Shown one piece after another: positions 32,308 through 50,715 of a stretch of DNA of 64,000 nt. The notes below the pieces were generated by a model. That model was given only the letters and a program-made list of their open reading frames with translations. It made no database searches and had not been told where the DNA came from. How positions within the stretch are numbered: the stretch's first letter is position 1; every line of letters starts with the position of its first letter. This DNA comes from Nitrospirota bacterium. GTDB taxonomy: Bacteria > Nitrospirota > Thermodesulfovibrionia > Thermodesulfovibrionales > JdFR-85. The position numbers and the translations under genes are program-made. The stretch is taken from assembly GCA_035873375.1 (NCBI GenBank), contig JAYWMQ010000041.1, forward strand, positions 1 through 64,000, read 5' to 3'.

Positions 32308-32507
32308 CCACCCTCTGTAAACCCTTGATACATAAGCCTCTACAGGGCAATTCCCGCCTGTCTAAATTTTCTCTCTCCATTTTCCTCAAAATTGTACCAA
32401 AAACAGCCTTAAAGTTGTCAAAGAGCCAGTGTTTGCAACGCCCGCCTGAGAGATTTTATAAAAAACACTCTTTTTCTCTTTAAAATTCCCCTGTTACTCG
32501 CCTTCTG
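32308..32507 (-). promoter_or_regulatory. leader of CRISPR array 1
   Basis: The sequence from 'ccctctgtaaacccttgata' to about 32490 is repeated almost unchanged beside arrays 2 (44276-44430) and 3 (46453-46640). On the minus strand it contains TTGACA (32416-32421) and TACAAT (32391-32396) spaced by 19 bp, a plausible array promoter. It fills the gap between the array and the cas6 stop; no gene is in it. Confidence 0.85.
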
Positions 32508-33473
32508 TTAAACTCTTACCTTATATTCCTGTTTCTCAGGCGGCAACAAGCGGTATCTTCCGAATCCGCTTGTTGTATGCTGCCCGACTCCGAGCACCTC
32601 TCCCATCTTAAGATATGGATAAAACCGGCCTATTTCTCCATTATACCTTATTATCCCTAATTGTCCACCTATTTTCAGGGATTTATGCTGTCTTGAGGAA
32701 AATCTGTTAAAATCCCGCCATTCTGTATATGCTTTTGTTTCAATCTTACCGGCCAAGGTTAAAAGGTCCTGTTTTTCGGGTTCGATCCGCTCCTTGTCAA
32801 AACTCCTGCCATTGCAGTAAAGGTTGTTAAGGTTTATAATCCTCTTTATTAAAAGTCTGAACAGGGTTTCAAAAGATACCTCTGTATAATAAATACCCTT
32901 TTCTTCATCCTTTATTTTTAAGGGGGTTAGGAGTTCAATTGTAAGTTCTTCCATTGATTGAACCTCTGAGTGAAAAAACCCTCTGAAACTCACGGGTTTT
33001 CTTACCTCTACATCTTTTATCCTGAATCTTCCTCTTCTTGTTCCGATACCTGTCCTGCCAAGCTCCTCAATAGTTTTAATAAACTTATCCGCATGTCCAG
33101 TTGCTTCACCTATCAGAACAATTTCAAGTGACATATCTTCCCCTGAATTATACACCCTTTTTGAATCGAGCTTGGGACGCATTATGTATGGATGGGGTCT
33201 GTTTGTAGCAAAGTATAAGAAGTAGAAACAATCTGGTGTAAGGTTACACTGAGTGCACTCGGTCTCCTCCCACCTATAAAAACATGCCAGATTCCTCAGT
33301 GCCTCCCCGAATCCGCCACGCCATCTGTCGCCCTTAACCTCGTCAGGGCCGAGATGGATTTTTTCAAGAGGGGAGAGTGTAAATTCAAGTGGTGTTAAAG
33401 TAAAACCGCTCAGTGACTGGATTATGTTGGAAGTATTGCATAAATTTAAATCTGCCTTATCCATGGTATTCAT
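32508..33473 (-). CDS. cas6: Cas6 pre-crRNA endoribonuclease
   Basis: A 321-residue RAMP protein of the Cas6 C-terminal-domain family often attached to type III systems. The N-terminal part has GDRWRGGFGEALRNLACFYR and a cysteine cluster (ECTQCNLTPDCFYF). The C-terminal glycine-rich loop is GVGQHTTSGFGRYRLLPP. It should cut array transcripts in the repeat and leave the ACTGAAAC handle. It is the last gene of the operon; two starts are possible (33473 or 33464), both overlapping the CARF-HD gene. A decayed copy of its 3' end lies beside array 3 (46654-46753). Confidence 0.92.
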   Translation of the reverse strand: MNTMDKADLNLCNTSNIIQSLSGFTLTPLEFTLSPLEKIHLGPDEVKGDRWRGGFGEALRNLACFYRWEETECTQCNLTPDCFYFLYFATNRPHPYIMRPKLDSKRVYNSGEDMSLEIVLIGEATGHADKFIKTIEELGRTGIGTRRGRFRIKDVEVRKPVSFRGFFHSEVQSMEELTIELLTPLKIKDEEKGIYYTEVSFETLFRLLIKRIINLNNLYCNGRSFDKERIEPEKQDLLTLAGKIETKAYTEWRDFNRFSSRQHKSLKIGGQLGIIRYNGEIGRFYPYLKMGEVLGVGQHTTSGFGRYRLLPPEKQEYKVRV

Positions 33474-35634
33474 AAAAAGGCTGTCCCCCGTTACTCATTT
33501 CCTTATATCCTTCTTCCCACCAGTATCTGATCCTGAGCTTGCATTCATTTAATAGGTATTCCTCAATTGCACTATACTCGGATTTCAGTTCATCTTCGAT
33601 GAATCCTTTCCTTTCATTACCAAGATATTCTTCAGCAATTTCATCGTTTTTGTATAACACAATATTAAATTCAAAATTATCATTACTATTAAAATTTCCT
33701 GAAGGGATCACCATTACCCTTTCTACACACTGATGTTTCAGATAGTGCTCATCTTGCTTATGCTTCATGTCTGCCCTGTCTACCAGTTCAGCAGCAGCAA
33801 GCCATAGACGGGCAAGGGTCTTATCTCCGTCGTTTTTAGTGTTTTTCAGTGTTTCAAGACATTTAATGCGGAAGTCCATGTATTCATCCTTAAGTTTCAT
33901 ATTTATATAGTCTATATAATTACAGCCTTCTTTTAGCTCATCATCGGTATTGTCTTTTATGGCAATGCATACATGCTTATAAGCCTCAAGGGTTTCTTCT
34001 GCTCGTTTGTGTGTGGATTCGTAATCCTTCTTCAGCAATTCAAGGGTTATTTCTACATCCTCTTTAGTGCCCGTCCTGCTGGCCTGATTGTCACATCCGT
34101 CAATGAGGCGTATCATGGCCGCAACCTTCATGATGTCAACACCGATATCTTTAAAAGTATTCCTATATTTAATCAAAGGTGGAAAGGTTTCTCCAGTAAA
34201 GGGATTGTTAAACTCCTCTTCATCTTCATTGAAAGGCGTGCTCCTTCTATGGTAACGGCATACCGTCATGACGGCGTCATGGAGCTTCTCATCTATCCCT
34301 GTTTCTTTTGGATATTCTTTTTTCACCCATCCTATTGTTTTCCCCAGATCGGGATCCTCAAGCCGCCTGGGGGCAAGCAGATGATGATACTTCCGTATTT
34401 CGCCGGGAAAGAGAGGGACAAGACCGAACCTATTCATTCCAGTATCCATATAATCAATACTGTGCCCGCAGTCATGCAGAAGGATGGCAGCTATCAGACA
34501 GAATCTTTCCTTTATGTTGAGGAATGTGTTATTTTCTGCAAATATAGGGGTGAGAAACATCTCGGCAAATTCAAGAAGGTTGTGGTGATGCCTCCTTGCA
34601 TGTTCAACCATCTCTGGAATCTTGTCGCCTGTCCAGATGTTGACGCCTGCTTTGTTGATGATACCCTCAAGTATCTCTATGTATTCGGAAGCATTGGAAT
34701 CATCACACAAGATGATTCTGACTATCTCTTTTGAATAGACCTCGAGAGGCTGTTCTTTTGATTGTTTAATGTATTTTTGTTCAAGTTGCTTTCCAAGTGC
34801 GTCGAGGTTATTATCCTTTATAAGCTCCTTTAACTTAGGATCAAGATTCTTTTCCTTGAAGCACGCTATCCCGTGCTCGCAAACCATCTTCAATCTCACG
34901 GCATTTCTGTGCCAGAGCTGAAAGTCAACCCCTATAGGGTAGGAAGGGATTTTTATAATTTCCTGTGAACTCTCAAAAAGGTAGCAGATTGTCACCTTTT
35001 CCGAGGGATGCAGCATTCCCTGAAGTGTGGTATAAGGCACTATTCCCTTATATCCACCTGTTATATTCAGGTAAATTGTATCTTTATCTGAATATAAGTT
35101 AATCAGCTTATAAATAACCTCAAAAAGATTTTTGACACCCTGGTCTCTAAATTGTATGCCCTCAAAGGCATTTATGCCTTCTACAGGACAGATGTCGACT
35201 GCTTTGAAGTAGTTGCTAAGTTCAACATGTTTATTTATATAACTTTTTATAACTTCTGCACAGAACATGGAATCGGGTGTGCCTGATGGAAGGAGATAAA
35301 CCAATTCGGGAAATTCAGGTTGCGTCCTTAATTCATCCCTTTTTCTTATCCATAGATAGCTTAACTCCTGTGGGAGCCTGTCAGTTCCTCTAGGTTGTCT
35401 GAGGTCAGGAGGTCTTAAATTGATCTCATCTTCCGGGTTTAACTGAGATAGAAGATCTCGCACTTCATTAATATCATGCTCTGTAGGTGGTTGCCCGTTA
35501 ATGATTGCTTCCTCAATCTTGTTACACTTGTCATTTAGTTTTTTAACTTTATCTGTCTGGTTGCTTCTTTTATTTCTTAGATAGCCAGTATTCGTTAATA
35601 GAGAGGTGCCAACTGTAATGATGTGGATTTCCAT
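33457..35634 (-). CDS. CARF-HD fusion protein, predicted cyclic-oligoadenylate effector of the type III system
   Basis: About 725 residues. The N-terminus is a CARF domain of the Csm6/APE2256 type: MEIHIITVGTSLLTNTGYL at strand 1, LVYLLPSGTPDSMFCAEV, and the ligand loop LNITGGYKGIVPYTTLQG (about residue 200). From about residue 340 follows an HD phosphohydrolase-like domain: HARRHHHNLLEFAEMFL, LIAAILLHDCGHSID (the HD pair), KYHHLLAPRRLE, TVCRYHRRSTPF and MIRLIDGCDNQ (final Asp). No HEPN RxxxxH site of Csm6 or Csx1 is apparent. The start is set at ATG 35634, with AAGGA upstream. It should bind cOA made by Cas10 and either degrade nucleic acid or nucleotides, or hydrolyse cOA itself; which one is unknown. 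Confidence 0.85.
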   Translation of the reverse strand: MEIHIITVGTSLLTNTGYLRNKRSNQTDKVKKLNDKCNKIEEAIINGQPPTEHDINEVRDLLSQLNPEDEINLRPPDLRQPRGTDRLPQELSYLWIRKRDELRTQPEFPELVYLLPSGTPDSMFCAEVIKSYINKHVELSNYFKAVDICPVEGINAFEGIQFRDQGVKNLFEVIYKLINLYSDKDTIYLNITGGYKGIVPYTTLQGMLHPSEKVTICYLFESSQEIIKIPSYPIGVDFQLWHRNAVRLKMVCEHGIACFKEKNLDPKLKELIKDNNLDALGKQLEQKYIKQSKEQPLEVYSKEIVRIILCDDSNASEYIEILEGIINKAGVNIWTGDKIPEMVEHARRHHHNLLEFAEMFLTPIFAENNTFLNIKERFCLIAAILLHDCGHSIDYMDTGMNRFGLVPLFPGEIRKYHHLLAPRRLEDPDLGKTIGWVKKEYPKETGIDEKLHDAVMTVCRYHRRSTPFNEDEEEFNNPFTGETFPPLIKYRNTFKDIGVDIMKVAAMIRLIDGCDNQASRTGTKEDVEITLELLKKDYESTHKRAEETLEAYKHVCIAIKDNTDDELKEGCNYIDYINMKLKDEYMDFRIKCLETLKNTKNDGDKTLARLWLAAAELVDRADMKHKQDEHYLKHQCVERVMVIPSGNFNSNDNFEFNIVLYKNDEIAEEYLGNERKGFIEDELKSEYSAIEEYLLNECKLRIRYWWEEGYKEMSNGGQPFYEYHG

Positions 35635-35635
35635 A

Positions 35636-37573
35636 TTATCCTTTCTGATGATTCCCACTCTTTATTGCTGCTGGGGTTTTAAGGGGTTCCTCATTATTTT
35701 GCAGCCTTTTTGCCCTTTGTTTCATAAAATATTCAAATCCTTTATCAGCGTAAGTTCCAGGCGGATAATATTGAACAGGTGTATCACCTGCAAGGTTTTT
35801 CTCGAATATCAAAAGAAGATTTTTTATGAATGGTAACTCTTTAAAGTTGTTGCTTCGATCCTCTCCTTCAGGAGAACCTGTTACCAGCCATGCCTTGAAT
35901 TTTCTGACATATTCCTGTAAATTGCTTTCTGTTACAGGGTTAGTATCAATAGAGTCAAGTTCTACTTCAGTGCTTTCCATGTCAAACCAGCTCTTTTCAG
36001 GTCTTTCAATAACAACAGTTTCAATATTAAACTGAACACTTCCCATTCCTATTCCCTTCCCCATGCCAAGTTTATGTGCAAAGTCTTGTGAAGCCTTAAG
36101 AGGATTGTCTGATAATGTCAAACACCAGAGAAGCATACCAAGCTCATATTCATCAAGGGACTCAAACTCAATAGTTCCCTTGAACTCAGCATTTGGTGGT
36201 AAAACAGCACAGGTTGAGTTCTGGTTGATATGTGGCTGTGTAGGCTCTTTTTTCCCTTCTTCTGAAAGATGTTCATGTTCGTAGCTTATGTGTGTTTGCC
36301 AGTCATCTTTCATTGCTGCAGGGTGGTGAAGATAGAACTTCCTACCTCTTATGGTCCCCGGTATTTTAGCCCACTCTTTTTCGGACTTTGTGTAATAGGC
36401 AGCCTTTTCGTTGGGATCGATGTTGTTGTCTTTTGGCTTAAGATAGAAAGGATAATATTTTGGCTTTGGGCTGGCAAGTATCTTCAGTGGTATAAGTATG
36501 GTATTTTCAAGCTTTTTATCAGACCACGCCGTCTTAAATCTGACACGGCCAGCTATGCCCTGTTCAGACCCTTCCTTTTCCGGAACCCAACCAAGAAGCC
36601 TTGTTGCGGGACAGAGCCGTTCTGGAGTTTTTGGATAAAGGGCAGATCGTGTGGAATGTTTTATTAGATCTTCTACAGAACACTCCTCTACCATTTTATG
36701 TGCTAATACTCTTCCAATTGTAGGTTTATCGCATGTCTCTTCATTACTAAAATGAAATCTTTTCATGAAAAATAGTATAGAATGTTTTTTTAACTTCCAC
36801 TCTGGATATGCCTCTTTATACTGTTTAATCATTCTATTAGAAATGTCGGTTCTCTTTGCAACTTTTGAAAAGTCTAAATCAGCTGTGTTATTCTCTCCAT
36901 CAAAATGACAGATTATCTTAAACAATTTCGGCTGATCCTCTATTGGTTTAACGGGCCTGTAAAGCAAACCTTTTCCGTATATATCACCTTCTGTTTTATT
37001 TCCCTTCTCTATACTTTTACCTTCATTTTCATATTTTAGATAAACAACTTTTCTACCTGATGATCTGAATTCTATTTCAGCACAATATGGTATGTAATTG
37101 CTGTCTCCTTCACTCTCTCCACACCAATCTTTATTTACTTTAAAAGCATCGGCCTCCTTAAATTCCCACCCGTTTCCATTGTCTTTTCCTTCCTTTGTAA
37201 CAACAAGAGGTTCAGCTTGATCAGGTGGCTTTCTAACCGTAGGATATGGATAAGATGATAGTACTCCAAAACTACTATTCGTTGCTGCCTCCACCACATT
37301 GCGCACCATTCCCTTTATTGATGTCGGGGGCAGACATAGGCGGTCATTAACATTAAAGAAGTCCATAACTTTATGGGTTTTTTTCTTTTCAGCTTCATTT
37401 GCCAGTTGGTAAACTGTGGTTCCTTCAGGGTCAGGAATAAAAAGGGGAGTTAAAGTTTTAAGTCTATATTCTATACGTCCGGATAGCCCATTATATAGAT
37501 GAGTTGGTTTGAATTTATCCCTCTTTGTTTCATCTTCGCAGGGGACAAAGTTATATGGATAAATGAATTTCAT
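35636..37573 (-). CDS. TIGR03986-type RAMP protein (large Cas7-like)
   Basis: A 645-residue CRISPR RAMP. It starts FIYPYNFVPCED, and this PYNFVP opening is characteristic of the TIGR03986 family. The first RAMP motifs are LKTLTPLFIPDPEG and LCLPPTSIKGMVRNVVEAAT, the Cas7 thumb/helix signature. The C-terminal glycine-rich segment is HKLGMGKGIGMGSVQF (about residues 515-530). A long insertion separates them. It is probably an additional backbone subunit of the III-D complex. It is 2 nt from the csx19-like gene upstream. Confidence 0.85.
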   Translation of the reverse strand: MKFIYPYNFVPCEDETKRDKFKPTHLYNGLSGRIEYRLKTLTPLFIPDPEGTTVYQLANEAEKKKTHKVMDFFNVNDRLCLPPTSIKGMVRNVVEAATNSSFGVLSSYPYPTVRKPPDQAEPLVVTKEGKDNGNGWEFKEADAFKVNKDWCGESEGDSNYIPYCAEIEFRSSGRKVVYLKYENEGKSIEKGNKTEGDIYGKGLLYRPVKPIEDQPKLFKIICHFDGENNTADLDFSKVAKRTDISNRMIKQYKEAYPEWKLKKHSILFFMKRFHFSNEETCDKPTIGRVLAHKMVEECSVEDLIKHSTRSALYPKTPERLCPATRLLGWVPEKEGSEQGIAGRVRFKTAWSDKKLENTILIPLKILASPKPKYYPFYLKPKDNNIDPNEKAAYYTKSEKEWAKIPGTIRGRKFYLHHPAAMKDDWQTHISYEHEHLSEEGKKEPTQPHINQNSTCAVLPPNAEFKGTIEFESLDEYELGMLLWCLTLSDNPLKASQDFAHKLGMGKGIGMGSVQFNIETVVIERPEKSWFDMESTEVELDSIDTNPVTESNLQEYVRKFKAWLVTGSPEGEDRSNNFKELPFIKNLLLIFEKNLAGDTPVQYYPPGTYADKGFEYFMKQRAKRLQNNEEPLKTPAAIKSGNHQKG

Positions 37574-37574
37574 T

Positions 37575-38177
37575 TTAATCCTCCACGGTTTTTTCCTTTA
37601 ATTTAAGCTCTTCGATATCCTTAGCCTCAGGGTATAAGAACCTCCAGAGGACGGGCTCTTTTTGCTTATTGAAATATTCCCTTATCTTTAATACTGGATA
37701 TTTTTTTTGAAGTTTCATTATGGCATCAGGGTATTCAATCGGTCTTGAACCAGCGACCCTGAGTTCGTAGTAGGCTTTCTCCTTGTCATTATATGTTCCC
37801 CAGAGCATCAGGTTTCTGTCTTTAAAAGAAGCTATATCTTTATCAAAGTCTTGCTCTGGCTTAAATGCTTCTGGGAATTCATCCCAATTACCATCTTCTA
37901 TCAATATTAAGAGTGAAAATTTACCTTCATAAAGCCTTCTCCATTCAAGCTGTCCTTTATCCCAGAATATCCTTCCTTTAAGCCCATATTCTGCAATCTG
38001 CTCACAGTTTAAGTCAGCAAATAATCTTCCAAGGTCGGCAAAATTATAGCGGTGAACATATTCAATAAGGGCATGGATATTATCTGCCTGTTTAAGCCGT
38101 TCTTTTGTAGGTTCACTATATAGCCAAGATTGAAGTGAGCTTCCATCAACTATTCCTGCTATTACAGTTAAATTCAC
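37575..38177 (-). CDS. csx19: Csx19-like CRISPR-associated protein
   Basis: A 200-residue protein with no RAMP glycine loop. The patterns YGLKGRIFWDKGQLEWRRL and DRNLMLWGTYNDKEKAYYEL resemble the Csx19 (TIGR03984) family, where short LW-rich repeats of this kind are common. Type III-D loci often carry csx19. Its position between the Cas7-Cas7 fusion (4-nt overlap) and the TIGR03986 RAMP fits. I am less sure of the family than of the context. Confidence 0.6.
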   Translation of the reverse strand: MNLTVIAGIVDGSSLQSWLYSEPTKERLKQADNIHALIEYVHRYNFADLGRLFADLNCEQIAEYGLKGRIFWDKGQLEWRRLYEGKFSLLILIEDGNWDEFPEAFKPEQDFDKDIASFKDRNLMLWGTYNDKEKAYYELRVAGSRPIEYPDAIMKLQKKYPVLKIREYFNKQKEPVLWRFLYPEAKDIEELKLKEKTVED

Positions 38178-39991
38178 TTTATCTCAGCCTCCGGGATTAT
38201 ATTTTCAGGGGTCCATTCTAAGACTTTTTCTCTGAATGAAGAGACTGCATTCTTAACGACCTCATACAATATCCCGTTTTCAGGTGAAATCCAGAAATAC
38301 CTATCTGGTTTTATTGTTGCAGAGACATACCGAAATCCTCCAACCTTTGAAGTAGGAGTAGTAGCCATTTCAGAAAGCACACCGTTACCATGTGTAATCG
38401 CTTCCATCCTTGTACTCCCCGGAAGGAGTTTTACTCTACCGAAGCCTTTATTCTTCCCAAAACCTACCGAAATCCTGGCATTATGGAGGTCTTTAAGCAA
38501 TAATGATACAAGCCCGAAGTGCCACAATTTAAAGTCATGGATTTCTATCTTAAAACAGATATCTCCTGAATCATCCGGCAGGTCATCATTTTCAGGGAAT
38601 CTACCCACTTCATAGAATGGGTAGAAAGGTCTTGAATTAAATTTCTTGCCGTGAGCCGCACCACCAGTGAACCTGTCAATTGCCACATGGTCAAGGAGTT
38701 TGAGCCTATTTTTAAATTTATTTGCATCTATCGGGACGGCATCAGAAAAATATATCCTTCCACCCATTGCAGGAAAACCGAATAATTTACTGATAATACA
38801 GGCATTATCATATACATCATTAAAACCTGCTTTTTTAAACTCTTTACCTTTGTCTCTAAGTCTTTTCAAATCCCAGATGGCATTCAGAGTAAATCTGCCG
38901 TCCCTGTCATTTTTAAAAGGATCATTATTCTTAAATCTTTCGAAGATCATTGTTCGTACCATCCGCTCTGCATGGGAACGGAGGCAACCTCTAATTGAAG
39001 AACCCGGAAGATATGGTATCCCTTCTTCATTAAGGCAGAAAGCTGAATCAACCGATATTAGATCATTAAGGGGTGGAAAATCTTGCAACTTATCAATTGG
39101 CTGTCCTTCCTCCTTTTTAGATCCTTTATAACTGACTGATTCAAGAGAATAACCTGTCTTTACCATAATCGGATCAATGGGTCTGAGCACACCTTCTATA
39201 ATGAGAACCTCTGGCCCAGGATACTTATCACCTGAGTGATTGCTTGTTCTTAAGGGATTGGTTTTTAAATTGTCTCTTAAATTTATTAAATTAATCTGTT
39301 CCAAGGCGTCTACTCCATCGAGCACAAACCTTAAGACATCTTCAGGGTTGGAACTATCGAATACGGAACATTTTAAATTCTCAATCGTAAATTCTCCATG
39401 ACCTGTGCCTGTCTTTCCCCCGATAGAAGCCCAGCCCTTTTCCATTAATTCAAGCAGGTCAAGGAATAAATGGAATGCTTCTTTATCTGGTCCCCTGCCA
39501 TGGTCTTGAAGAGCTTTTTCTTCCTCAATAACATTCTTTTCTCTAAATACACAGGAAAAACTGAATCTGCTTTTTGAAGAAATAACTTCATCATGGAAAA
39601 GATGCTGCTCCTCAGCGCTACCCCTCTCCCGGTTGATGGAAGTTCTATCCTGTATAAATGACGTGCCCATTGAAGCAGGAATTAACTGTGCGTCATGCAC
39701 AATAAGTCTTGATTCTCTACCTTCGTTTCTGCCATTCCTTTCTTCTGCTGCTGACCCAAAGAGCGCCTTAAAAACAGGTTCAGCATCAATATTCTCTGTT
39801 GGCACTTTTTCAAGTCTCAGTCTTTTCTTTGCAAGGGATGCCATTATGCCACAGATGGACGTTCCGGAAATTACAGGAACTCCATCCATTTCTCGTAAGA
39901 CAAGACTATCAATATAATCATCTTTTTCACCAGAGCCAAGATGAAGTGGACTTTGAAGAACAAGCTCACCTTTAAAATAATGACTCTTCAT
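38174..39991 (-). CDS. Cas7-Cas7 fusion (Cas7-2x), type III-D backbone subunit
   Basis: 605 residues with two Csm3-like RAMP units. Unit 1 (about 1-215): SPLHLGSGEKDDYIDSLVL, GVPVISGTSICGIMASLA, ASIGGKTGTGHGEFTIENL. Unit 2 (about 265-530): VKTGYSLESVSYKG, LISVDSAFCLNEEGIPYLPG, SSIRGCLRSHAERM, SVGFGKNKGFGRVKLL. Each unit keeps an Asp just before the SGTS/PGSS loop (YID in unit 1, SVD in unit 2), in the position of the target-RNA-cutting Asp of Csm3; activity is inferred. The two-unit fusion is known from III-D2 complexes. It overlaps its neighbours by 4 nt on each side. Confidence 0.85.
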   Translation of the reverse strand: MKSHYFKGELVLQSPLHLGSGEKDDYIDSLVLREMDGVPVISGTSICGIMASLAKKRLRLEKVPTENIDAEPVFKALFGSAAEERNGRNEGRESRLIVHDAQLIPASMGTSFIQDRTSINRERGSAEEQHLFHDEVISSKSRFSFSCVFREKNVIEEEKALQDHGRGPDKEAFHLFLDLLELMEKGWASIGGKTGTGHGEFTIENLKCSVFDSSNPEDVLRFVLDGVDALEQINLINLRDNLKTNPLRTSNHSGDKYPGPEVLIIEGVLRPIDPIMVKTGYSLESVSYKGSKKEEGQPIDKLQDFPPLNDLISVDSAFCLNEEGIPYLPGSSIRGCLRSHAERMVRTMIFERFKNNDPFKNDRDGRFTLNAIWDLKRLRDKGKEFKKAGFNDVYDNACIISKLFGFPAMGGRIYFSDAVPIDANKFKNRLKLLDHVAIDRFTGGAAHGKKFNSRPFYPFYEVGRFPENDDLPDDSGDICFKIEIHDFKLWHFGLVSLLLKDLHNARISVGFGKNKGFGRVKLLPGSTRMEAITHGNGVLSEMATTPTSKVGGFRYVSATIKPDRYFWISPENGILYEVVKNAVSSFREKVLEWTPENIIPEAEIK

Positions 39992-40482
39992 GAAGCAATA
40001 CCCTTTAAAATATCTCTAATAATACTTCGCAAAATATCCCTTCTCCATTCCATAAAATCATTTCGACGTAATTCAAAAGAATTTATATCAATATCACTTG
40101 TTTCCTTAATAAAACTCCCGAGATTATCTTCCAATCTGCTATCAGTATATTCATTTCTTTCTTTTTTAGACCATGATGGAAGTTTATCGGCTAACTCTTT
40201 AACAATATTACTCTTCCAGGCACTTTCCTCCTTTTGATTTTCATGTGCAAAAAACATGGCCCAGTTTTTAACCTCATCGTCTCTGAAAATAAGTTCTATG
40301 AATTGCTCATTCTGGGTTTTAGTTTCAGCCCCCTTAAACTTTGATAAAAAGTATTTAATTTCTTCCCCTTTTGCTCTGTTATTATCAAGAATCTCTGCAA
40401 ATATTGAGACGTGGTCAATTGCCTTTCTTGCTCCCAGCTTTACGGCTTCTTTTATTAGTCTCTTACGGAAGCGTTCATTCAT
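39988..40482 (-). CDS. small alpha-helical CRISPR protein, probable Cas11-like subunit
   Basis: A 164-residue, highly charged, helical protein (FRKRLIKEAVKLGARKAID, FAHENQKEESAWKSNIVKEL) with no RAMP motifs. The size and position between csx10 and the Cas7 fusion fit the small subunit (Csm2/Cmr5/Cas11) of type III complexes. The assignment rests on context, since these subunits diverge quickly. It starts inside the csx10 stop (TAATG). Confidence 0.6.
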   Translation of the reverse strand: MNERFRKRLIKEAVKLGARKAIDHVSIFAEILDNNRAKGEEIKYFLSKFKGAETKTQNEQFIELIFRDDEVKNWAMFFAHENQKEESAWKSNIVKELADKLPSWSKKERNEYTDSRLEDNLGSFIKETSDIDINSFELRRNDFMEWRRDILRSIIRDILKGIAS

Positions 40483-41585
40483 TACATAACCCCTGATTGA
40501 AAATGAAATGGGTCATTAATCCTTATTTCTCCAAATCCTTCCTGTCTTCTTAATCCCAATCCATGAGCCTGTAGTTCTTTAAAAGCCCCTATCAAATCAC
40601 TTTGGTTCTTATCCCTCTTAAGTTCAAATCGAAAGAGAAAAGAACTCCCCATTGAAATGGCAATCTCTGCCTCCAAGGGTCTCTGATAGGCGCCATTCCA
40701 GCCATGAACAACTTTCTTAGATGAAAAAAATCGTTCAAGCTTGCAAAATTCAACCGTATCCCTGACAATATCCGATATAATTGTTTCAGGCACATAAGTC
40801 AGATACCTATGGAATGAATCAGGTAATATGGTGTCTGAATAACAGCTAATACTGAAGTATTCTGGATAAAAATTTATATTTTCATTCAGAACCTTGGTAA
40901 CATCATCCTCTTTCTTCAAAAAAATCCTGCCGGGACTTCTACCAATGGGAATTTCAATGCCATCTATTATACCCATTTTTTTAAGTGTATCCTCTAACGT
41001 CTTATCTAAATCATTTATATTTGACTTTATATATCCAATAAAGACAGTGCCTCTTGGTATCGTTATTCTTGAAAAGAGCCTTCCTGCTTTGGTAACTCCC
41101 CTTATATTGTCCCGTTCATGTTGTGTAAGCTGGTTGAAAGATAGATGAAATGTATTGCACGCAGGGGGATTCCCTGAGTAAAACCCCTGATGTTTTACGT
41201 AATCCTCATATTCAACGTTCTCGGGAATACCCCTTAAAAGCCAGTCATCAACACCATCTGCATAACCGTTTTGTGAATAGTCAACCCCGTCACTTTTAAA
41301 CCCAGGGGCACTTTTGAATGTCCTTGCAGATAGAGGTGCTGGTTTTGTCCTATAGCCGCCTTTGTCTTCAGGATAAAGATTGGAGAATACTACATTGCCG
41401 GAGTAAAAAATGTTCATGAAATTTTTATCAGGTTTGTCCCCAGGCCTGATACCTGTTAATGAGGCTACAGTTCCCCATAGAATCCTGCCGGGGATAAAAG
41501 GAAGAGTTTCATACTGATTTCCAAATCCCTGCCTCTGTGAAAGGCAGATTTCTTCAGTAACTTCAGCCCTGACAGGATAAATCAT
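40482..41585 (-). CDS. csx10: Csx10-like Cas5 RAMP protein
   Basis: About 367 residues. The glycine-rich loop near the C-terminus is LQAHGLGLRRQEGFGEIRI, typical of Csx10. LPFIPGRILWGTVASLTG at the N-terminus is a RAMP helix motif. VTKAGRLFSRITIPRGTVFIGYI is also Csx10-like. The frame is open to 41621, but ATG 41585 overlaps the upstream stop as ATGA, so coupled translation from there is preferred. Csx10 is the marker of subtype III-D and caps the crRNA 5' handle. Confidence 0.85.
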   Translation of the reverse strand: MIYPVRAEVTEEICLSQRQGFGNQYETLPFIPGRILWGTVASLTGIRPGDKPDKNFMNIFYSGNVVFSNLYPEDKGGYRTKPAPLSARTFKSAPGFKSDGVDYSQNGYADGVDDWLLRGIPENVEYEDYVKHQGFYSGNPPACNTFHLSFNQLTQHERDNIRGVTKAGRLFSRITIPRGTVFIGYIKSNINDLDKTLEDTLKKMGIIDGIEIPIGRSPGRIFLKKEDDVTKVLNENINFYPEYFSISCYSDTILPDSFHRYLTYVPETIISDIVRDTVEFCKLERFFSSKKVVHGWNGAYQRPLEAEIAISMGSSFLFRFELKRDKNQSDLIGAFKELQAHGLGLRRQEGFGEIRINDPFHFQSGVM

Positions 41586-42328
41586 AACACTCTCTCTGCC
41601 TGTCTTATAGCATTCTTCCAATCGGCTATATGTTTATTGATATGTGATTTCCAACCGTTTTCAGGGATAACCCGGCATTGACCGAGCCCCCTGTTTCTAT
41701 TCCCACCAATTTCAGTTATCAGTCTAAGGCAGAGTAAAGCCAATGAATAATCAAAGTAACGTATATCATCAGAATATCGTTTATGGTCAGGCATTTCTAA
41801 TATGTTCCCCACAAGACCAACCGGCATATCAATCAGTCCTGATGAAAAAAGTGCATCCTCTCTCGCTCTTCTCAGTAAGGGATCGATACTGTTCCGTGCA
41901 CGTCGTGTATAAATATCTCCGGTAGACTCGAATAAGTTCTTGAAAATTTGATCATATGGTTTCGTAACATAAGCTCCTGAGAAGTCAAAACTCCTTTTTA
42001 TTTCGCCTCCAGGTATCCCAAATATGCGACAAAGAGGGCAAAGACTGAAGTTATCCTTTCCGTAATCAGGCTGACAGTACTTACCTTCTCCTTTGGATTG
42101 AGCATCGCAGAGATCATAGCTCCCCCAGTATTTATTTTCATAACAATGTTGCCAGATGGATGCCTTAACCCTTCCCCTTACACTTGAGGCAGGGATATAG
42201 GGAACTCCGTCTGAAAGGAGAGAAACCATATCATACTTCCCAGGATCTGTTACTGAAGAAGCTATAATAAAGGGAGAAGAGAATTCAATCTTGTATTGAA
42301 TGTTATACAGTTTATCCTCCTTCCTCAA
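41582..42328 (-). CDS. csm3: Cas7/Csm3-like RAMP protein
   Basis: 248 residues: IEFSSPFIIASSVTDPGKYD, then VSLLSDGVPYIPASSVRGR (RAMP motif with an Asp in the catalytic position), a cysteine-rich insertion (FSLCPLCRIFGIPGG), RNSIDPLLRRAREDALF, and the glycine loop ITEIGGNRNRGLGQCRV. It forms the backbone of the effector complex with the Cas7-Cas7 fusion and the TIGR03986 protein. Its start overlaps the cas10 end by 17 nt. Confidence 0.9.
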   Translation of the reverse strand: MRKEDKLYNIQYKIEFSSPFIIASSVTDPGKYDMVSLLSDGVPYIPASSVRGRVKASIWQHCYENKYWGSYDLCDAQSKGEGKYCQPDYGKDNFSLCPLCRIFGIPGGEIKRSFDFSGAYVTKPYDQIFKNLFESTGDIYTRRARNSIDPLLRRAREDALFSSGLIDMPVGLVGNILEMPDHKRYSDDIRYFDYSLALLCLRLITEIGGNRNRGLGQCRVIPENGWKSHINKHIADWKNAIRQAERVL

Positions 42329-43889
42329 TCAGACCGAAAATTTCCATCATCTCTATGATGTCTACTATCGGGGTAGAGTCCCCGATGATATTCGGTTTCA
42401 CCGGAAGATCATTATTTAATGAAAATCTTCCAGTCAGGGTATCTATATAATCTTTATTTTTGTCGCTCAAACGTTCGTACCATAGTTTATAGTCCTTTTT
42501 TGCTTCATCTCTTTTCTGCGCCAGCAGAATCGCCAGATCTTTCAGTTTGTTCATGGGAAATTCATCACTAATAAGCTCAAGAGATGTTTCCGTAAGTTTA
42601 ATAATCTCATCAGGTGTGTATGGCCCCCCATAGAGCATAAGATCTACATTTCCAGAATCGGTTTTTGTCATCCTACGTATTCTTATGGAATTTAAGTCAC
42701 CGGATGTCTGGTTTTTTATAAGACAGAAGTCAATAAGGGAAGGCTTGATACTATCGGAACTGACTCTGCTATAAACCTTTGCTCTTGTCTCAAGCTCTTT
42801 TCCTATGTGGTTAAAGTTCTGGATTGGATAGTTATATGGAGCAAGAACTACACCTGCGGACATGGTAAGGTATTCAGGAAGATCATTATCTGACTCTTGA
42901 ATATCCTTAAACGTTTCCATAAGTTTCTTTGATTTTTTTTCAAAAGTATTAAGAAGAGAAGATGCCACATCCAGTGCAAAACACCCCTGTATAGCCACAG
43001 CAAGGTCATCGCCCCCAATATATAGGACCCTTACAGGTAGTGCAGTAATACCAGGAGAAGGTAGCTTCGCTTTAATCGCAGGTTCGATTACAACCTTAAA
43101 AGATTCAAACAGAGAGTCTTTTATTATTTTTGTAAGTTCAGGGGAGAAAAGCTCATAAAGGTCTTTGTTTTTTCCTACATTTTTTGTTAACTTACCGAGT
43201 CCGTTCACATCTGCATAGATAATCCCCATTATCCTCTTCTCAGAAGTGCCGGCTTCTTTTATCTGTATATCTTCCCTATTGTTCCAACTTACAATACCGC
43301 CAAAATCTTTCGGAAGGGAATATTTAAAATAATCAATGAGTTGCTTTTCTACTTCAGAATACTTGTTATCAGGATTTTTCTTGTCAAATATGAACTTCTC
43401 TGCTTCAGATGTATTGAATCTTCTCTCTTTATTGCCTGGAAGAACTACAACGTTTTCAGCGTTTCCAATGCCTGAACTTTCACAGGGTACCGATAAGATA
43501 GATGAGATGATTAGCTCATTATCACATGGCTGGCTCTTCCTCACCTGCATCTCCCTAAACATCGGCATTAGTACTTCTCTATAAAAGTCCGCAGGTGAGC
43601 TTGATAAATGAGGAAAGATTTGTGAGGTTACAGAGATTCCATATTCTCTGTATGAATTGATAGCCTTAATTTCAAAGTCCTTTGCGTTCTGATAACTATC
43701 ACATTCAGCTATAACCACTCCACCGCCAGCACGGATGATTTTGCATCTGGAGCGTTTAGCTATATCCCGAATATTTTCATCCTCTATCCAGGAAAGTAAT
43801 AACGAGGCATTGCATATCTCTTTCAGACGTCTGGAAGCAAAGACGTATTCCTGTATGCGGTTACAGTCTATGAAGACATATTCAGACAT
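42312..43889 (-). CDS. cas10: Cas10 large subunit lacking the HD domain, GGDD intact
   Basis: About 525 residues. The N-terminus goes straight into a palm-like region (MSEYVFIDCNRIQEYVFASR). No HD nuclease motif is found. The second palm has IYADVNGLGKLTKN and RVLYIGGDDLAVAIQG; the GGDD pair is the cyclic-oligoadenylate synthase site. A C-terminal helical domain follows. An HD-less Cas10 is typical of subtype III-D. The open frame reaches 43970, but a consensus promoter lies at 43927-43955, inside that stretch. The real start is therefore most likely ATG 43889, with GAGAGGGC upstream. Confidence 0.93.
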   Translation of the reverse strand: MSEYVFIDCNRIQEYVFASRRLKEICNASLLLSWIEDENIRDIAKRSRCKIIRAGGGVVIAECDSYQNAKDFEIKAINSYREYGISVTSQIFPHLSSSPADFYREVLMPMFREMQVRKSQPCDNELIISSILSVPCESSGIGNAENVVVLPGNKERRFNTSEAEKFIFDKKNPDNKYSEVEKQLIDYFKYSLPKDFGGIVSWNNREDIQIKEAGTSEKRIMGIIYADVNGLGKLTKNVGKNKDLYELFSPELTKIIKDSLFESFKVVIEPAIKAKLPSPGITALPVRVLYIGGDDLAVAIQGCFALDVASSLLNTFEKKSKKLMETFKDIQESDNDLPEYLTMSAGVVLAPYNYPIQNFNHIGKELETRAKVYSRVSSDSIKPSLIDFCLIKNQTSGDLNSIRIRRMTKTDSGNVDLMLYGGPYTPDEIIKLTETSLELISDEFPMNKLKDLAILLAQKRDEAKKDYKLWYERLSDKNKDYIDTLTGRFSLNNDLPVKPNIIGDSTPIVDIIEMMEIFGLIEEGG

Positions 43890-43926
43890 TGCCCTCTCTA
43901 TTTTTGTTTCATGTAGTCGTGTTGAA

Positions 43927-43955
43927 ATTATAGTTGTTCCGTCTCTGAATGTCAA
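43927..43955 (-). promoter_or_regulatory. consensus sigma70 promoter of the cas operon
   Basis: On the minus strand TTGACA (43950-43955) and TATAAT (43927-43932) are both perfect and 17 bp apart. The predicted transcript starts near 43920, about 30 nt before the cas10 ATG at 43889. Confidence 0.85.
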
Positions 43956-43985
43956 CACACACGCACGCACAGTATCCGAATCATG

Positions 43986-44167
43986 TCAAATGAAAATATA
44001 CCGTCCATAGCTGGCAAACCCTTTACATGCGCCCCGGAAGTGTCATTTCAGGGCGTACATATCTGGCTGGATTACCCGGAAATATTGACTTCTGGCAGGC
44101 AGGAATAAAGCTGACAACAGGCAAAATGCTTTCCCGCATATTCACCCTGTAACTGGACCGATTCAAG
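43986..44167. repeat. array-distal flank, copy A of a duplicated segment
   Basis: About 180 nt ('aaaatataccgtccatagct' through 'aactggaccgattcaagg') that recur with scattered mismatches at 45581-45763. In both places they sit at the leader-distal end of an array. Copy A lies directly upstream of the cas10 promoter. It contains no believable gene. Confidence 0.85.
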
Positions 44168-44275
44168 GTTTTAAGTCGCCTCTTACTTACGGCTCTTTTG
44201 AACGGTATATTATGGGTTTTCAGGTAGTAAGGGGAGGAATGTTTCAGTTGCCTCTTAACAACGGCTCTTTTGAAC
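44168..44275 (-). CRISPR. CRISPR array 2 (minimal: one degenerate repeat, one spacer, one repeat)
   Basis: A degenerate 36-nt repeat (44168-44203), a 37-nt spacer (44204-44240), and a full repeat (44241-44275) with the variant AACAACGG in the middle. It has the same repeat family and orientation as arrays 1 and 3, with the leader on the right. It is either a nearly emptied array or a duplicate that has not grown. Confidence 0.9.
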
Positions 44276-44430
44276 CCTCCCTCTGTAAACCCTTGATACA
44301 TAAGCCTCTACAGGGCAATTCCCGCCTGTCTAAATTTTCTCTCTCCATTTTCCTCAAAATTGCACCACAAACAGCCTTGAAGTTGTCAAAGAGCCGGTGT
44401 TTGCAACGCCCGCTTGAGAGATTTTATAAA
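44276..44430 (-). promoter_or_regulatory. leader of CRISPR array 2
   Basis: A near-copy of the array 1 leader. The minus-strand -10 is TGCAAT here instead of TACAAT, so this array may be weakly expressed. Similarity to the other leaders ends at about 44430, and no cas6 tail follows. 44431-44512 has nothing recognisable. Confidence 0.8.
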
Positions 44431-44512
44431 AAAAACGGACCGAACTCTTTTCTGAGCTTAATTTTTTTAGGTTGCTAAAGAACTCTAAGTTTGACTTTGA
44501 AAGTCTCGTTTC

Positions 44513-44968
44513 TCAATTCCTCATCGTATTTTCTTTTACCTTATAATCCTTTATAAACCTTCCAATTTCCAGAATAAAATGCTCTATATCTTTCAGGTCG
44601 TTCTGAAGTATTTCATATAATTCTTCATCCGTGATTTCATGATAAAAGTGGACAATCCTGTTACGATAACCTGCCATCTCCATGAGTTTATACATGAGTG
44701 GTTTTGATATAATCCCGCTTTCTCCAAGTCCCTTTGCTATGTTTTTGTATTCATGTGTCAACCTGACCTTGCCTGTTTTAGCAAGAACATGTCTTCCGAT
44801 ATCAAATATTGCCTCAAGACAATGCCGGATAAACGTCTCAGCAGAGGCAGGGTTTTTATAGTCTTCAAGAAACTCTTCCCTTGACAGTTCACTCAGTTCT
44901 CTTAAACGTGAAAGCGCAACTCTTATGGCGTCGATTCTCCCTGTCAGCATCTCCATATTCAACTTCAT
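44513..44968 (-). CDS. hepT: HepT-like HEPN toxin
   Basis: A 151-residue HEPN protein (DUF86-type). The RNase/active motif is AGYRNRIVHFYHEI (Rx4-6H form, RNxxxH), and the N-terminal helices are MLTGRIDAIRVALSRLRELS and ETFIRHCLEAIFDIGRHVL. It is the toxin of the MntA-HepT pair and overlaps the nucleotidyltransferase gene by 4 nt. It sits between CRISPR arrays 2 and 3. Confidence 0.9.
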   Translation of the reverse strand: MKLNMEMLTGRIDAIRVALSRLRELSELSREEFLEDYKNPASAETFIRHCLEAIFDIGRHVLAKTGKVRLTHEYKNIAKGLGESGIISKPLMYKLMEMAGYRNRIVHFYHEITDEELYEILQNDLKDIEHFILEIGRFIKDYKVKENTMRN

Positions 44969-45399
44969 CCGCTTATAGCCTCCAGCACTTCTTTTGTGTA
45001 CCGGTCGTAATCAGGCTTCCAGTCCTGATAGAGCTTTATTACCATCTCTTCATATTCAAGCCTCCGGTCTTCGTCACAACTGTAGACCACCAAACCGCTG
45101 ATCGCCTCAAACTGAAGAATAACGCCGGTCTCCTGCAGGAAGATAAGATCCAGCGTAAAAGGCGAGAGTATTTCGTTCAGTTCTGAATAGAGCCTTCCGT
45201 AGGTCCTTATCCTCTCTTTTGGACTCAACGGTCTTTCAAGGAACACAACGCCCATGTCTATATCAGCAAGAGGATCCTCCGTCTTTTCGTATTCCTTGCC
45301 TTCGAGAAAGGCAGCACCCTCCTCAGCCCTGGAGCCGAAAATATAGGCCGCAAGTATCCCGTAGTCCTTACAAATCCTGTCAAACCTTTCCTTCCTCAT
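44965..45399 (-). CDS. mntA: MntA-like minimal nucleotidyltransferase antitoxin
   Basis: A 144-residue nucleotidyltransferase: AAYIFGSRAEEGAA, then DPLADIDMGVVF, which gives the GSx(n)DxD site; the third acid is likely in FTLDLIFL. Compared with typical MNTs there is an insertion of about ten residues between GSR and DID (FLEGKEYEKTED). Known partners AMPylate HepT to silence it. It is the first gene of the pair. Confidence 0.9.
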   Translation of the reverse strand: MRKERFDRICKDYGILAAYIFGSRAEEGAAFLEGKEYEKTEDPLADIDMGVVFLERPLSPKERIRTYGRLYSELNEILSPFTLDLIFLQETGVILQFEAISGLVVYSCDEDRRLEYEEMVIKLYQDWKPDYDRYTKEVLEAISG

Positions 45400-45580
45400 C
45401 TTCTCCTCTTTTCCTCAGTCACCTGAACCTGGCCAGAAGATCATTCGGGCTGAACAATATTGAATTCGTCAAACACAACATCCCAGGGTATAGCTTCTAT
45501 CTTTTTTAATTTCAAGCCCCACTTTTACCCTCCTGCTTTGAAGTGCAACTTTCAGCATATAGCAAAATGCTACCATTTCT
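45400..45580 (-). other. upstream region of mntA-hepT with a possible broken micro-ORF
   Basis: No intact gene is seen. On the minus strand a TTG-started frame reads KLKKIEAIPWDVVFDEFNI. After a one-base shift it continues SPNDLLARFR and stops. This looks like a frameshifted small protein or the end of a lost gene. The promoter of mntA-hepT should also lie here. Confidence 0.25.
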
Positions 45581-45763
45581 GTCAACAAAAAATATACCGT
45601 CTATAGCTGGTAAACCCTTTACCTGCACCCGGGAAGTGTAATTTCAGGGCGTACATATCTGGCTGGATTGCCCGGAAACATTGACTTCTGACAGGCAGGA
45701 ATAAATCTGACAACAGTCAAAATGCTTTTCCGCATATTCAACCTGTAACTGGACCGATGCAAG
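45581..45763. repeat. array-distal flank, copy B of a duplicated segment
   Basis: The counterpart of 43986-44167, in the same orientation and the same position relative to its array. Differences are scattered substitutions ('gtctatagctggtaaaccct' versus 'gtccatagctggcaaaccct'). It supports duplication of the whole flank-array-leader unit. Confidence 0.85.
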
Positions 45764-46452
45764 GTTTTAAGTCGCCCTTACTTACGACTCTTTTGAACAA
45801 TGCAATTTTTCATTTTTCGGGGAGGAGGATCGGATGTTTCAGTTGCCTCTTAACAGCGGCTCTTTTGAACAAAAATGAGTCAAAGATGAACAATCAAGAG
45901 GATGAAGACGTTTCAGTTGCCTCTTAACAGCGGCTCTTTTGAACGCAGTCTGGTCACTCAGCGCGGAAGACAAGATCCCGTTTCAGTTGCCTCTTAACAG
46001 CGGCTCTTTTGAACATATCTTGAGCAGAACGCCCCCAAGATAGCTCAGGAGCAGAGTTTCAGTTGCCTCTTAACAGCGGCTCTTTTGAACGCGATGCTGG
46101 GGAACTTGTCCTCAGATACCGCCACCGGGTTTCAGTTGCCTCTTAACAGCGGCTCTTTTGAACTTTCTCCTGTTATGGTGGATATTACTCAAAAAATGGT
46201 TTCAGTTGCCTCTTAACAGCGGCTCTTTTGAACGACAGGGTTCGTCCACAGAGTGGAAGGTTTTCGGAGAAGTTTCAGTTGCCTCTTAACAGCGGCTCTT
46301 TTGAACTCTCGGGTTGTTTCCGAAGAGGAGTTTGAAACTAAGTTTCAGTTGCCTCTTAACAGCGGCTCTTTTGAACACATGAAATAACTTCCACGCCAAA
46401 CAAGAGAGAAATGGATAGTTTCAGTTGCCTCTTAACAGCGGCTCTTTTGAAC
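45764..46452 (-). CRISPR. CRISPR array 3 (9 repeats plus one degenerate terminal repeat)
   Basis: A degenerate repeat lies at 45764-45798. Full 35-nt repeats start at 45836, 45910, 45978, 46056, 46129, 46199, 46272, 46342 and 46418, all with AACAGCGG and TTTTGAAC. Spacers are 33-43 nt and none is seen to be shared with array 1. The leader is on the right, so the transcript is on the minus strand. The degenerate repeat matches the one in array 2 more than the consensus. Confidence 0.98.
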
Positions 46453-46640
46453 CCTCCCTCTGTAAACCCTTGATACATAAGCCTCTACAGAGCAATTCCC
46501 GCCTGTCTAAATTTTCTCTTTCCATTTCCCTTAAAATTGTACCAAAAACAGCCTTAAAGTTGTCAAAGAACCAGTGTTTGCAACGCCCGCCTGAGAGATT
46601 TTATAAAAAACACTCTTTTTCTCTTTAAAATTCCCCAGGT
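46453..46640 (-). promoter_or_regulatory. leader of CRISPR array 3
   Basis: A close copy of the array 1 leader, including the TACAAT and TTGACA promoter elements on the minus strand. The match to the array 1 side continues past the leader into the end of cas6 (next entry). Confidence 0.85.
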
Positions 46641-46653
46641 TACTCGCCTTTTG

Positions 46654-46753
46654 TTAAACTGTTACCTTATATTCGTATTTCTCAGGCGGTACTCAAGCGG
46701 TATCTGCCGAATCCGCTTGTTGTATAACTATCTCTCCATTATACACTATAATA
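46654..46753 (-). pseudogene. decayed duplicate of the cas6 3' end
   Basis: The minus strand carries YNGEI, then a deletion, then TTSGFGRYRL, then (after a one-base insertion) PPEKYEYKVTV and TAA. This matches the C-terminus of the intact Cas6 at 32508 (TTSGFGRYRLLPPEKQEYKV). It sits at the same distance from the leader as the real gene does from leader 1. It is a fragment and cannot be functional. Confidence 0.85.
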
Positions 46754-46798
46754 GTGGATACAGGGGCAGACCGAAGACAGTAAATGCACTTGCCTTGA

Positions 46799-47125
46799 AT
46801 GCAATTTATAGGGGTCTCAACATTCAACATAACGAAACCCGCATCCCCTGTTTTTACTTCTTATGTCAAATGTTTCGACCCCAAATTCCTTCCCTTTACA
46901 GATAACGTGCTGGTCACCAGATGGAAGGGACTCATGCCTCTCAACCAGGACCGCCAACCCTTCCGGTCTGGTGCACTGTCTGGTTGGGTATTTTTATTCG
47001 ATAACCATAATGGGGATGTGCTTATTGTGCACATCCCTGAAAAAGCATTACTCTCTGCGGTTAAATACCGGGAAATCTCCAGGATTCGACATATCATGAG
47101 AGACCCTGAATCAAGTTCAGGGTGA
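46799..47125 (+). CDS. doubtful ORF of unknown nature
   Basis: A 108-codon frame (FDPKFLPFTDNVLVTRWKGL, GDVLIVHIPEKALLSAVKYR) with no family I recognise and no clear ribosome site. Its end runs into a dispersed repeat ('accctgaatcaagttcaggg', about 47103-47124), which argues against a normal gene. It may be a fragment of a lost gene. Confidence 0.2.
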   Translation: MQFIGVSTFNITKPASPVFTSYVKCFDPKFLPFTDNVLVTRWKGLMPLNQDRQPFRSGALSGWVFLFDNHNGDVLIVHIPEKALLSAVKYREISRIRHIMRDPESSSG

Positions 47126-47142
47126 CAGTCTTTATTGATGAT

Positions 47143-47556
47143 TCAATAATCCAAAACATTTTTTATCATTTCTTTTTTTATGGTTCTGTAAATATAATAA
47201 TCGTTATCTATTGTTAGTATTTCCTTTATTCCAGCTTCTTCTGAAACTATAATTAAACTGGCATCAGCAAGGTCCATTGGTATATCCTTATACTTATTAG
47301 TAATTTCTATTATTCTTTTTATTTTGTTAACCGATATTTCAAATACTTCAACTCCACCTCTATTTATCCATTCCAAAAATGCAATTTGTGCATTTACGTT
47401 AAAATCCAGCATATGACTTGCTTCCGTTATAACAGGCCATGTAGTAATTAATTTCCCTGCATATCTTTTTAGGTATTCTGTTACTCTATTGTGATATTTG
47501 TCTTTTCTGTTAAACAATGCGATTATTGGGCCAGCATCAATGAGAACCTTTTTCAA
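47143..47556 (-). CDS. vapC: PIN-domain toxin (VapC-like)
   Basis: A 137-residue PIN nuclease. Acidic residues are in place: VLIDAGPIIALFN (Asp), TTWPVITEASHML (Glu), DIPMDLADASLIIVSEE (Asp pair) and ILTIDNDYYIYR (final Asp). It overlaps the ribbon-helix-helix antitoxin gene by 20 nt. Confidence 0.9.
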   Translation of the reverse strand: MKKVLIDAGPIIALFNRKDKYHNRVTEYLKRYAGKLITTWPVITEASHMLDFNVNAQIAFLEWINRGGVEVFEISVNKIKRIIEITNKYKDIPMDLADASLIIVSEEAGIKEILTIDNDYYIYRTIKKEMIKNVLDY

Positions 47557-47785
47557 TTAATTTATCCTTTAATTTCTTTTTATAATTCTGTGAAAGTTCT
47601 GTATCTTTAAATTCATACTTTCCGAATAAATCCACTCCAAGTTCATATGGGGTCTTTTCCATTTTCCTTGTTTTTATATATGCTTTTAAAGCTTCTTTTA
47701 TTATCTGGGATTTTGTGGCCTTTTCTAAAGCAGCTATTCTGTCTATTTCATCTTCCATTTCTTTTGGTAATCTGACAGTTAACAT
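47537..47785 (-). CDS. ribbon-helix-helix antitoxin
   Basis: An 82-residue protein. LTVRLPKEMEDEIDRIAAL and SQIIKEALKAYIKTRK form a CopG/RHH DNA-binding domain, followed by a charged toxin-binding tail. Its Shine-Dalgarno is part of the large palindrome at 47792-47832, so self-regulation by protein or RNA structure is likely. Confidence 0.88.
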   Translation of the reverse strand: MLTVRLPKEMEDEIDRIAALEKATKSQIIKEALKAYIKTRKMEKTPYELGVDLFGKYEFKDTELSQNYKKKLKDKLIEKGSH

Positions 47786-47791
47786 AGTAAT

Positions 47792-47832
47792 CTCACCTCC
47801 TTGTATTACATATTGTAATACAAGGAGGTGAG
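47792..47832 (-). promoter_or_regulatory. 19-bp-arm palindrome over the antitoxin ribosome-binding site
   Basis: The arms 47792-47810 (CTCACCTCCTTGTATTACA) and 47814-47832 are exact inverse copies around TAT. On the minus strand the 3' arm carries AAGGAGGTGAG, a few nt before the antitoxin ATG. It could be the RHH operator, or an RNA hairpin hiding the Shine-Dalgarno, or both. Confidence 0.85.
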
Positions 47833-47961
47833 AAAGTCAATTGTCGTTTTTTCCCTGTTGATTTTTAGTCTTTTCTATGCTATGGTGAGGTGTGTGAGGA
47901 TTAGCTGACGGTGAGGACAGATGTTATGACAAATCAGGTCAGGGGTAATTGTTGCTGAGCT

Positions 47962-50590: not shown

Positions 50591-50715
50591 CTCTTGCAAA
50601 AGTCTGAAAACATAGCAAAATGTCATTCTGAACTTGTTTCAGAATCTAATAAAAACAATAAGTTAAGAGACCCTGAAACAAGTTCAGGGTGACAAATAGA
50701 AGACTTTTGCAAGAG
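50591..50715. repeat. small palindromic (MITE-like) element
   Basis: Terminal inverted repeats CTCTTGCAAAAGTCT (50591-50605) and AGACTTTTGCAAGAG (50701-50715) are exact. Inside is a second long inverted pair, TGTCATTCTGAACTTGTTTC and its imperfect mirror ending GTTCAGGGTGACA. The inner half also occurs at 47099-47126. No transposase is present, so it would be moved in trans. Confidence 0.75.

Follow-up and report, generated by a model that had tools for sequence, protein, structure and literature searches.

Arrays, leaders and cas genes

The window (the whole stretch of 64,000 nucleotides that was analysed, here contig C41) carries three CRISPR arrays with leaders, a III-D-like effector operon with its cas6 gene, and a toxin-antitoxin pair. 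In arrays 1 (31118-32307), 2 (44169-44275) and 3 (45764-46452) the leader lies on the right side, so that all three are read on the minus strand, which is also the strand of the cas operon. Repeats are 35 nt long and are regularly spaced by spacers of 31-42 nt, as expected of CRISPR arrays. Array 1 holds 16 spacers and is built of two blocks, an old, leader-distal one of five repeats with the outermost truncated (31118-31427; variant ...AACAGCGG...TTTTCAAC) and a new, leader-proximal one of 12 repeats (31465-32307; variant ...AACATCGG...TTTTGAAC). Array 2 consists of a degenerate terminal repeat, one spacer and one repeat of variant AACAACGG. Array 3 has a degenerate terminal repeat, nine repeats (AACAGCGG...GAAC) and nine spacers. 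Arrays 2 and 3 thus show a leader at one end and a degenerate distal repeat at the other, the configuration of a CRISPR with leader.

Leader 1 (32308-32507, minus strand) fills the interval between array 1 and the stop codon of cas6. Leader 2 (44276-44436, minus strand) is truncated on its cas6 side, ends without a cas6 tail and has four private substitutions in its core. Leader 3 (46453-46653, minus strand) could be aligned with the five other leaders of the genome. With repeat and leader aligned, leaders 1, 2 and 3 are 93-97% identical, in agreement with the preliminary description of this region, which had assigned the same leader to arrays 2 and 3. A scan of leaders 1 and 2 for sigma-70 promoters gave no match at 16-18 nt spacing. 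The leaders have an invariant TTGACA followed by TACAAT (arrays 1, 3, 4 and 5) or TGCAAT (arrays 2 and 6), at an off-standard spacing of about 19 nt.

Next to leader 1 lies cas6 (32508-33473, minus strand), which encodes a 321-aa protein recognized by the Pfam Cas6 profile. The III-D-like effector operon extends over 33457-43970 on the same strand and encodes a CARF (APE2256)-HD-CE fusion, a TIGR03986 RAMP, a Csx19-like protein, a fused Csx7-type RAMP, a small subunit, a Csx10-like protein, a Cas7-like RAMP and a Cas10 in which GGDD is present. The first of these combines its CARF (Cas_APE2256) and HD-CE domains in a single 733-aa protein (33457-35658) with a relative in the related genome G122; at the second operon of the genome, on contig C26, the counterpart is a set of separate CARF, SAVED and membrane-like proteins. 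At both loci Cas10 scored above the PF22335 cut-off and the palm-domain GGDD was read in the sequence. The III-D signatures of C41 scored below cut-off (Csx10, 81 bits with a cut-off of 177; Csx19, 26 bits with a cut-off of 35), and those of C26 above it for Csx19 (45.5 bits) and just below it for Csx10 (163 bits).

Arrays 2 and 3 are separated by a pair of the type VII HepT/MntA kind, that is, a HEPN toxin with an R-x4-6-H motif beside an MNT antitoxin. The HepT-like (HEPN) RNase toxin (44513-44968, minus strand; Pfam PF01934, 1.3e-23) has the R-x4-H motif RNRIVH. The nucleotidyltransferase antitoxin (44965-45399, minus strand) reached 50.1 bits, below the NCBIfam equivalog cut-off of 60, and is hence called MntA-like only. 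Farther along, at 47143-47833, a 137-aa minus-strand ORF and a small ORF, with a perfect 20-bp inverted repeat alongside (47791-47833), look like a second, putative toxin-antitoxin pair.

The three arrays of the window belong to a family of six, the other three of which (arrays 4, 5 and 6) lie on C26. Leader copies are likewise divided three and three between the two contigs, as are the repeats, and the six leaders are mutually 91-97% identical. The order on C26 is a Y1 transposase gene, array 4, leader 4, a cas6 remnant, cas2, cas2, RT-Cas1, array 5, leader 5, an intact cas6, the second III-D-like operon up to cas10, a truncated copy of the flank described below, array 6 and, beyond it, leader 6, which is cut short. 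Array 4 has 9-10 spacers and array 5 has 18; arrays 2 and 6 have one each. The RT-Cas1 fusion (L009:2989-5172 on C26) contains RVT_1 and Cas_Cas1 domains, is accompanied by two cas2 genes and is the only Cas1 detected in this 99%-complete genome. The C41 arrays would therefore presumably acquire spacers in trans through the RT-Cas1/Cas2 of C26, as their shared leaders and repeats suggest. The two tandem cas2 genes that adjoin RT-Cas1 (L009:2433-5172) differ from each other, and the arrangement is kept in G048, G122 and L037.

In the related genomes G048 and G122 there is a single array, in the layout cas10...cas6-leader-array-RTcas1-cas2-cas2, which is likely to be ancestral. The operon of G048 resembles that of C26, and the operon of G122 has the CARF-HD fusion of C41.

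Two origins of the cas6 gene beside array 1

The Cas6 proteins of the C41 and C26 loci are 68% identical, compared with about 24-38% over aligned segments for the other shared Cas proteins. This similarity is unevenly distributed. Among positions where C41 and C26 encode the same residue, identical codons make up 46 of 104 up to alignment column 200 but 101 of 113 beyond it (P = 6e-13), and the same test is flat for C26 versus G048 (P = 0.40) and for C41 versus G122 (P = 0.66). Quartet sites grouping C41 with G122 and C26 with G048 prevail in the 5' part (65:10:11), and no such signal is found in the 3' part (4:5:4). The best breakpoint is sharp and falls at aligned nucleotide 612 of 966, with 61% identity before it and 94% after it; its 2dLL is 142, whereas 1000 block permutations reached about 46 at most. 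The break at synonymous sites, the breakpoint scan and the quartet counts thus describe a chimeric gene, in which the 3' 37% (approximately 32508-32861) is of the C26/G048 type and the 5' 63% is native, of the C41/G122 type. A 3' part that is synonymously conserved in all lineages was also considered, and G122 argues against it. The preliminary description had used this cas6 as the intact reference for array 1; the gene itself has two origins. In the same-genus genome G002, a separately assembled MAG, the orthologous cas6 also passes from C41 type to C26 type, at another point than in C41, although this breakpoint lies at most about 80 nt from a contig end and could reflect a chimeric contig.

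The repeats of array 1 change on the other side of the same leader. Between repeats 5 and 6 (31427-31465) they switch from AGC...CAAC to ATC...GAAC, both sites together. According to work in E. coli, as cited in PMC3396285, a new repeat is a copy of the leader-proximal repeat. If repeats are copied in this way, a joint switch at two sites is the expected trace of a replaced leader end. The simplest reading of these data is that a C26-type locus supplied the cas6 3' end as well as the leader and leader-proximal repeat of array 1. A comparable switch, again at two sites together, occurs partway along array 5 (TTTTATC to CTCTTAAC; L009:5551-5585), whose old repeat is that of array 6 and whose new repeat is that of array 2. 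The repeat variant of array 3 is in turn that of array 4.

Flanks, remnants and the order of the copies

It was proposed in the preliminary description that arrays 2 and 3 share their leader-distal flank, and this was confirmed. Flank F2 (43984-44167), between cas10 and array 2, and flank F3 (45580-45763), on the distal side of array 3, together with the degenerate terminal repeats are 91% identical over 197 nt (43984-44180 versus 45580-45776; a 184-bp flank plus the repeat; E 5e-76). No other copy at that level of identity was found elsewhere in the genome. A partial homologue lies upstream of array 6, so that the distal flank of array 3 pairs with those of arrays 2 and 6, and F2 can be followed into G002 at 88% up to 44129. 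The distal flank of array 1 was rejected as a further homologue, its 44-45% identity being the level of unrelated sequence. A dispersed mobile repeat was rejected too: the genome has just two complete copies, and 150 relatives beyond G002 yielded none that is convincing.

On the far side of leader 3, the decayed cas6 3' end that had been noted earlier is present at 46654-46752 (minus strand). It comprises the last 72 nt or so of the gene, a deletion of about 50 nt and then some 25 nt more; 46654-46725 matches the cas6 3' end at 97% over 32 nt, and the match across the junction is 86%. Arrays 3 and 4 have in common this deletion junction and also, beyond the remnant, some 60 nt of non-cas6 DNA (46753-46812 in the window; L009, about 2245-2290, on C26). 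A 1-nt insertion, located in a short stretch of ambiguous alignment, occurs in the remnants of arrays 3, 4 and G002:C26 and in the cas6 of G048; the cas6 genes next to arrays 1 and 5 and that of G122 lack it. Contig L026 of G002 begins in a leader (L026:1-161) and continues into a cas6 remnant that is 100% identical to that of array 4 over about 77 nt, followed by unrelated sequence from the break position of array 4 onward. Judged by these comparisons, array 3 looks like a mosaic: its remnant side goes with array 4, its distal flank with arrays 2 and 6, and its stop-to-leader gap is nearest to that of array 1.

These pairings bear on the chain of copies suggested initially, in which an array-1-like junction gave rise to array 3, the cas6 of array 3 decayed, and a partial copy became array 2. 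The flank and terminal repeat common to arrays 2 and 3, as well as the cas6 remnant, fit such a chain. The stop-to-leader gap of array 3 differs at 3 of 56 positions from that of array 1 and at 8-9 of 56 from those of arrays 4 and 5 (9 for array 4), and the divergence of the flanks (9%) is close to that between leaders 2 and 3 (7%). However, the remnant of array 3 and its outside flank pair with array 4 on C26, the 1-nt insertion is not in the cas6 of array 1, the repeat variant of array 2 is that of the new repeats of array 5 and not that of array 3, and the 3' end of the cas6 of array 1 appears to be imported itself. We consider this chain unlikely. What stands of it is that array 3 once lay at a leader-cas6 junction, though descent from one like the current junction of array 1 is not supported, and that arrays 2 and 3 have common distal ancestry. 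Recombination likewise holds as the engine of array multiplication, in the form of a shuffling of ends across two loci instead of simple copying.

A tree of the leader copies, also suggested at that stage, could be built but does not give the copy order. The leader core has 19 variable columns and yields nine equally short trees, and forcing arrays 2 and 3 together costs one extra step in the core and three in the cas6-side half. The four-gamete test records 15 violating column pairs among nine informative columns, some of which homoplasy could produce given so few informative sites. A leader tree was rejected as a means to order the copies on this account. Leader 2 is no closer to the leader of array 3 (10/145 differences) than to that of array 1 (6/145), and array 2 may or may not have arisen from array 3 by truncation.

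Another possible origin is tandem duplication of an [array-leader-cas6...cas10-flank] unit with later loss of the extra operons, which would make arrays 2, 3, 4 and 6 scars. Every array is oriented alike relative to the cas genes, array 3 is flanked by a cas10-side flank and a cas6 remnant as at the junction of two tandem units, and the same flank accompanies arrays 2 and 6, both of which are located upstream of a cas10. Against this, no remnant of a second operon was found besides the cas6 tail, and the C41 and C26 operons, only about 25-30% identical, are not recent tandem copies. Such an origin seems improbable, although it would be compatible with later exchange. In the same scenario HepT/MntA would have filled a slot left empty on C41, and the adaptation module would have stayed behind in another on C26. 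In G002, HepT/MntA adjoins cas10 without an intervening array, which makes the slot history ambiguous.

G002 is collinear with C41 over 33043-44129 (93%) and 44549-45060 (96%). Between cas10 and HepT it has an unrelated stretch of 125 nt (L038:11070-11194) in place of array 2 and leader 2. The flank-array junction is common to array 3, so that loss of array 2 in G002 is a simpler reading than its gain in C41. No CRISPR repeats and no close RT-Cas1 homologue were found in the assembled contigs of G002. All compared genomes are draft, multi-contig assemblies, and the genome studied here is in 63 contigs, with repeats that exceed typical k-mers; the G002 contigs also break at these sites. Extra copies created by misassembled repeats would nevertheless have to differ by 3-9%, to contain private spacers and a homogeneous repeat variant of their own in each array (two blocks in array 1), and to agree with the collinearity of G002 over both intervals, which makes an assembly artefact highly improbable.

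Probable exchange of array ends between two loci

The reading that we favor, and consider probable, is homologous exchange of array and leader ends within a family of six arrays that a single RT-Cas1/Cas2 serves in trans. Exchange, by gene conversion or crossing-over, would be seeded by the near-identical repeats and leaders, and repeated swapping of array sides would transfer distal flanks, leaders and the cas6 3' part from one to the other of two otherwise divergent III-D-like loci. Directly visible in the sequence are the two-sided pairings of array 3, the chimeric cas6, the two-site repeat switches and the conflicting leader sites. As to mechanism and direction, we infer conversion of C41 by the C26 type, and shared use of one RT-Cas1 may select for uniform leaders. 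No spacer is common to any two of the six arrays, as would be expected if arrays had been duplicated when almost empty or had collapsed and then been refilled. Three spacers, taken singly from arrays 1, 2 and 3, were compared with viral contigs, and no protospacer was found for any of them.

Arrays 1, 3, 4 and 5 retain the full leader and a cas6 end; arrays 2 and 6 have truncated leaders without a cas6 end, and these leaders carry four and six private substitutions, respectively, compared with 0-2 in the other arrays. In the systems covered by PMC4390879 and PMC3396285, a leaderless array is inactive in acquisition. Although constrained by a sample of two arrays among six, this pattern is suggestive of arrays 2 and 6 being inactive, unable to add spacers and drifting. 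The TGCAAT that these two arrays share in place of TACAAT points the same way, but as a promoter reading it is weak, given the spacing of about 19 nt and the lack of any hit in the standard scan of leaders 1 and 2. The same pattern could be read differently, in that the cas6 3' end is kept as part of an extended leader and is not decaying, the arrays having spread as array-leader-cas6-tail cassettes that need the tail for the single RT-Cas1. We hold this only as a tentative, rather unlikely possibility. The stand-alone arrays with a cas6 tail (3 and 4) have 9 and about 10 spacers, and the tail-less arrays 2 and 6 one each. A third stand-alone copy of leader and cas6 tail, in G002, sits at a contig end, and its array lies outside the assembled sequence.

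Recombination between CRISPR loci within one cell, in which spacer-repeat segments move via the repeats, has been described in Sulfolobales (PMC4390879), and for mixed-repeat arrays of Pyrobaculum either homologous recombination or the copying of a repeat from another array was invoked (PMC3396285). The present family resembles these cases in inter-locus recombination through repeats and in arrays with two repeat variants, but differs in that the exchange extends to the leader and the cas6 3' part, leaving a chimeric gene and cas6 remnants on stand-alone arrays. Module exchange, in which adaptation and interference modules evolve separately, is the subject of work cited in PMC4390879, and RT-Cas1 modules are found in combination with a variety of type III effectors, possibly acting in trans (PMC5513706). 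One RT-Cas1/Cas2 apparently serving two divergent III-D-like operons is in line with this, whereas the boundary of the swap lies here inside cas6 and not between modules. Array collapse and repopulation is described in PMC8047081, which cites a Legionella study (PMC7056967). Arrays 2 and 3, with a common degenerate terminal repeat and no common spacers, are similar to what is described there, except that a duplicated array flank is combined with it here. Exchange of array ends is therefore a known process, of which this is a clear case, and the chimeric cas6 is the new element; a chimeric cas6 travelling with the leader was not found described in the literature searched.

A CRISPR array is usually taken as a chronological record kept within a single locus. 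In this family, a block made up of an array's leader end, its repeat variant and part of the adjacent cas gene appears to have been transferred between two effector systems. After such movement, array position, repeat type and cas6 phylogeny would no longer reveal the system in which an array originated. The family also illustrates how several arrays and two effector complexes could be kept compatible by a single adaptation module, and it leads to a testable prediction on the extent of upstream sequence that type III leaders need.

Two minor observations concern the surroundings of the arrays. The Y1 (IS200-like) transposase gene of C26 (L009:228-1240) abuts the distal end of array 4, the outermost repeat of which is truncated. 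In the window, a short repeat, AGAGACCCTGAA[A/T]CAAGTTCAGGGTGACA, occurs at 47099-47127 and at 50621-50694, one occurrence being an inverted pair.
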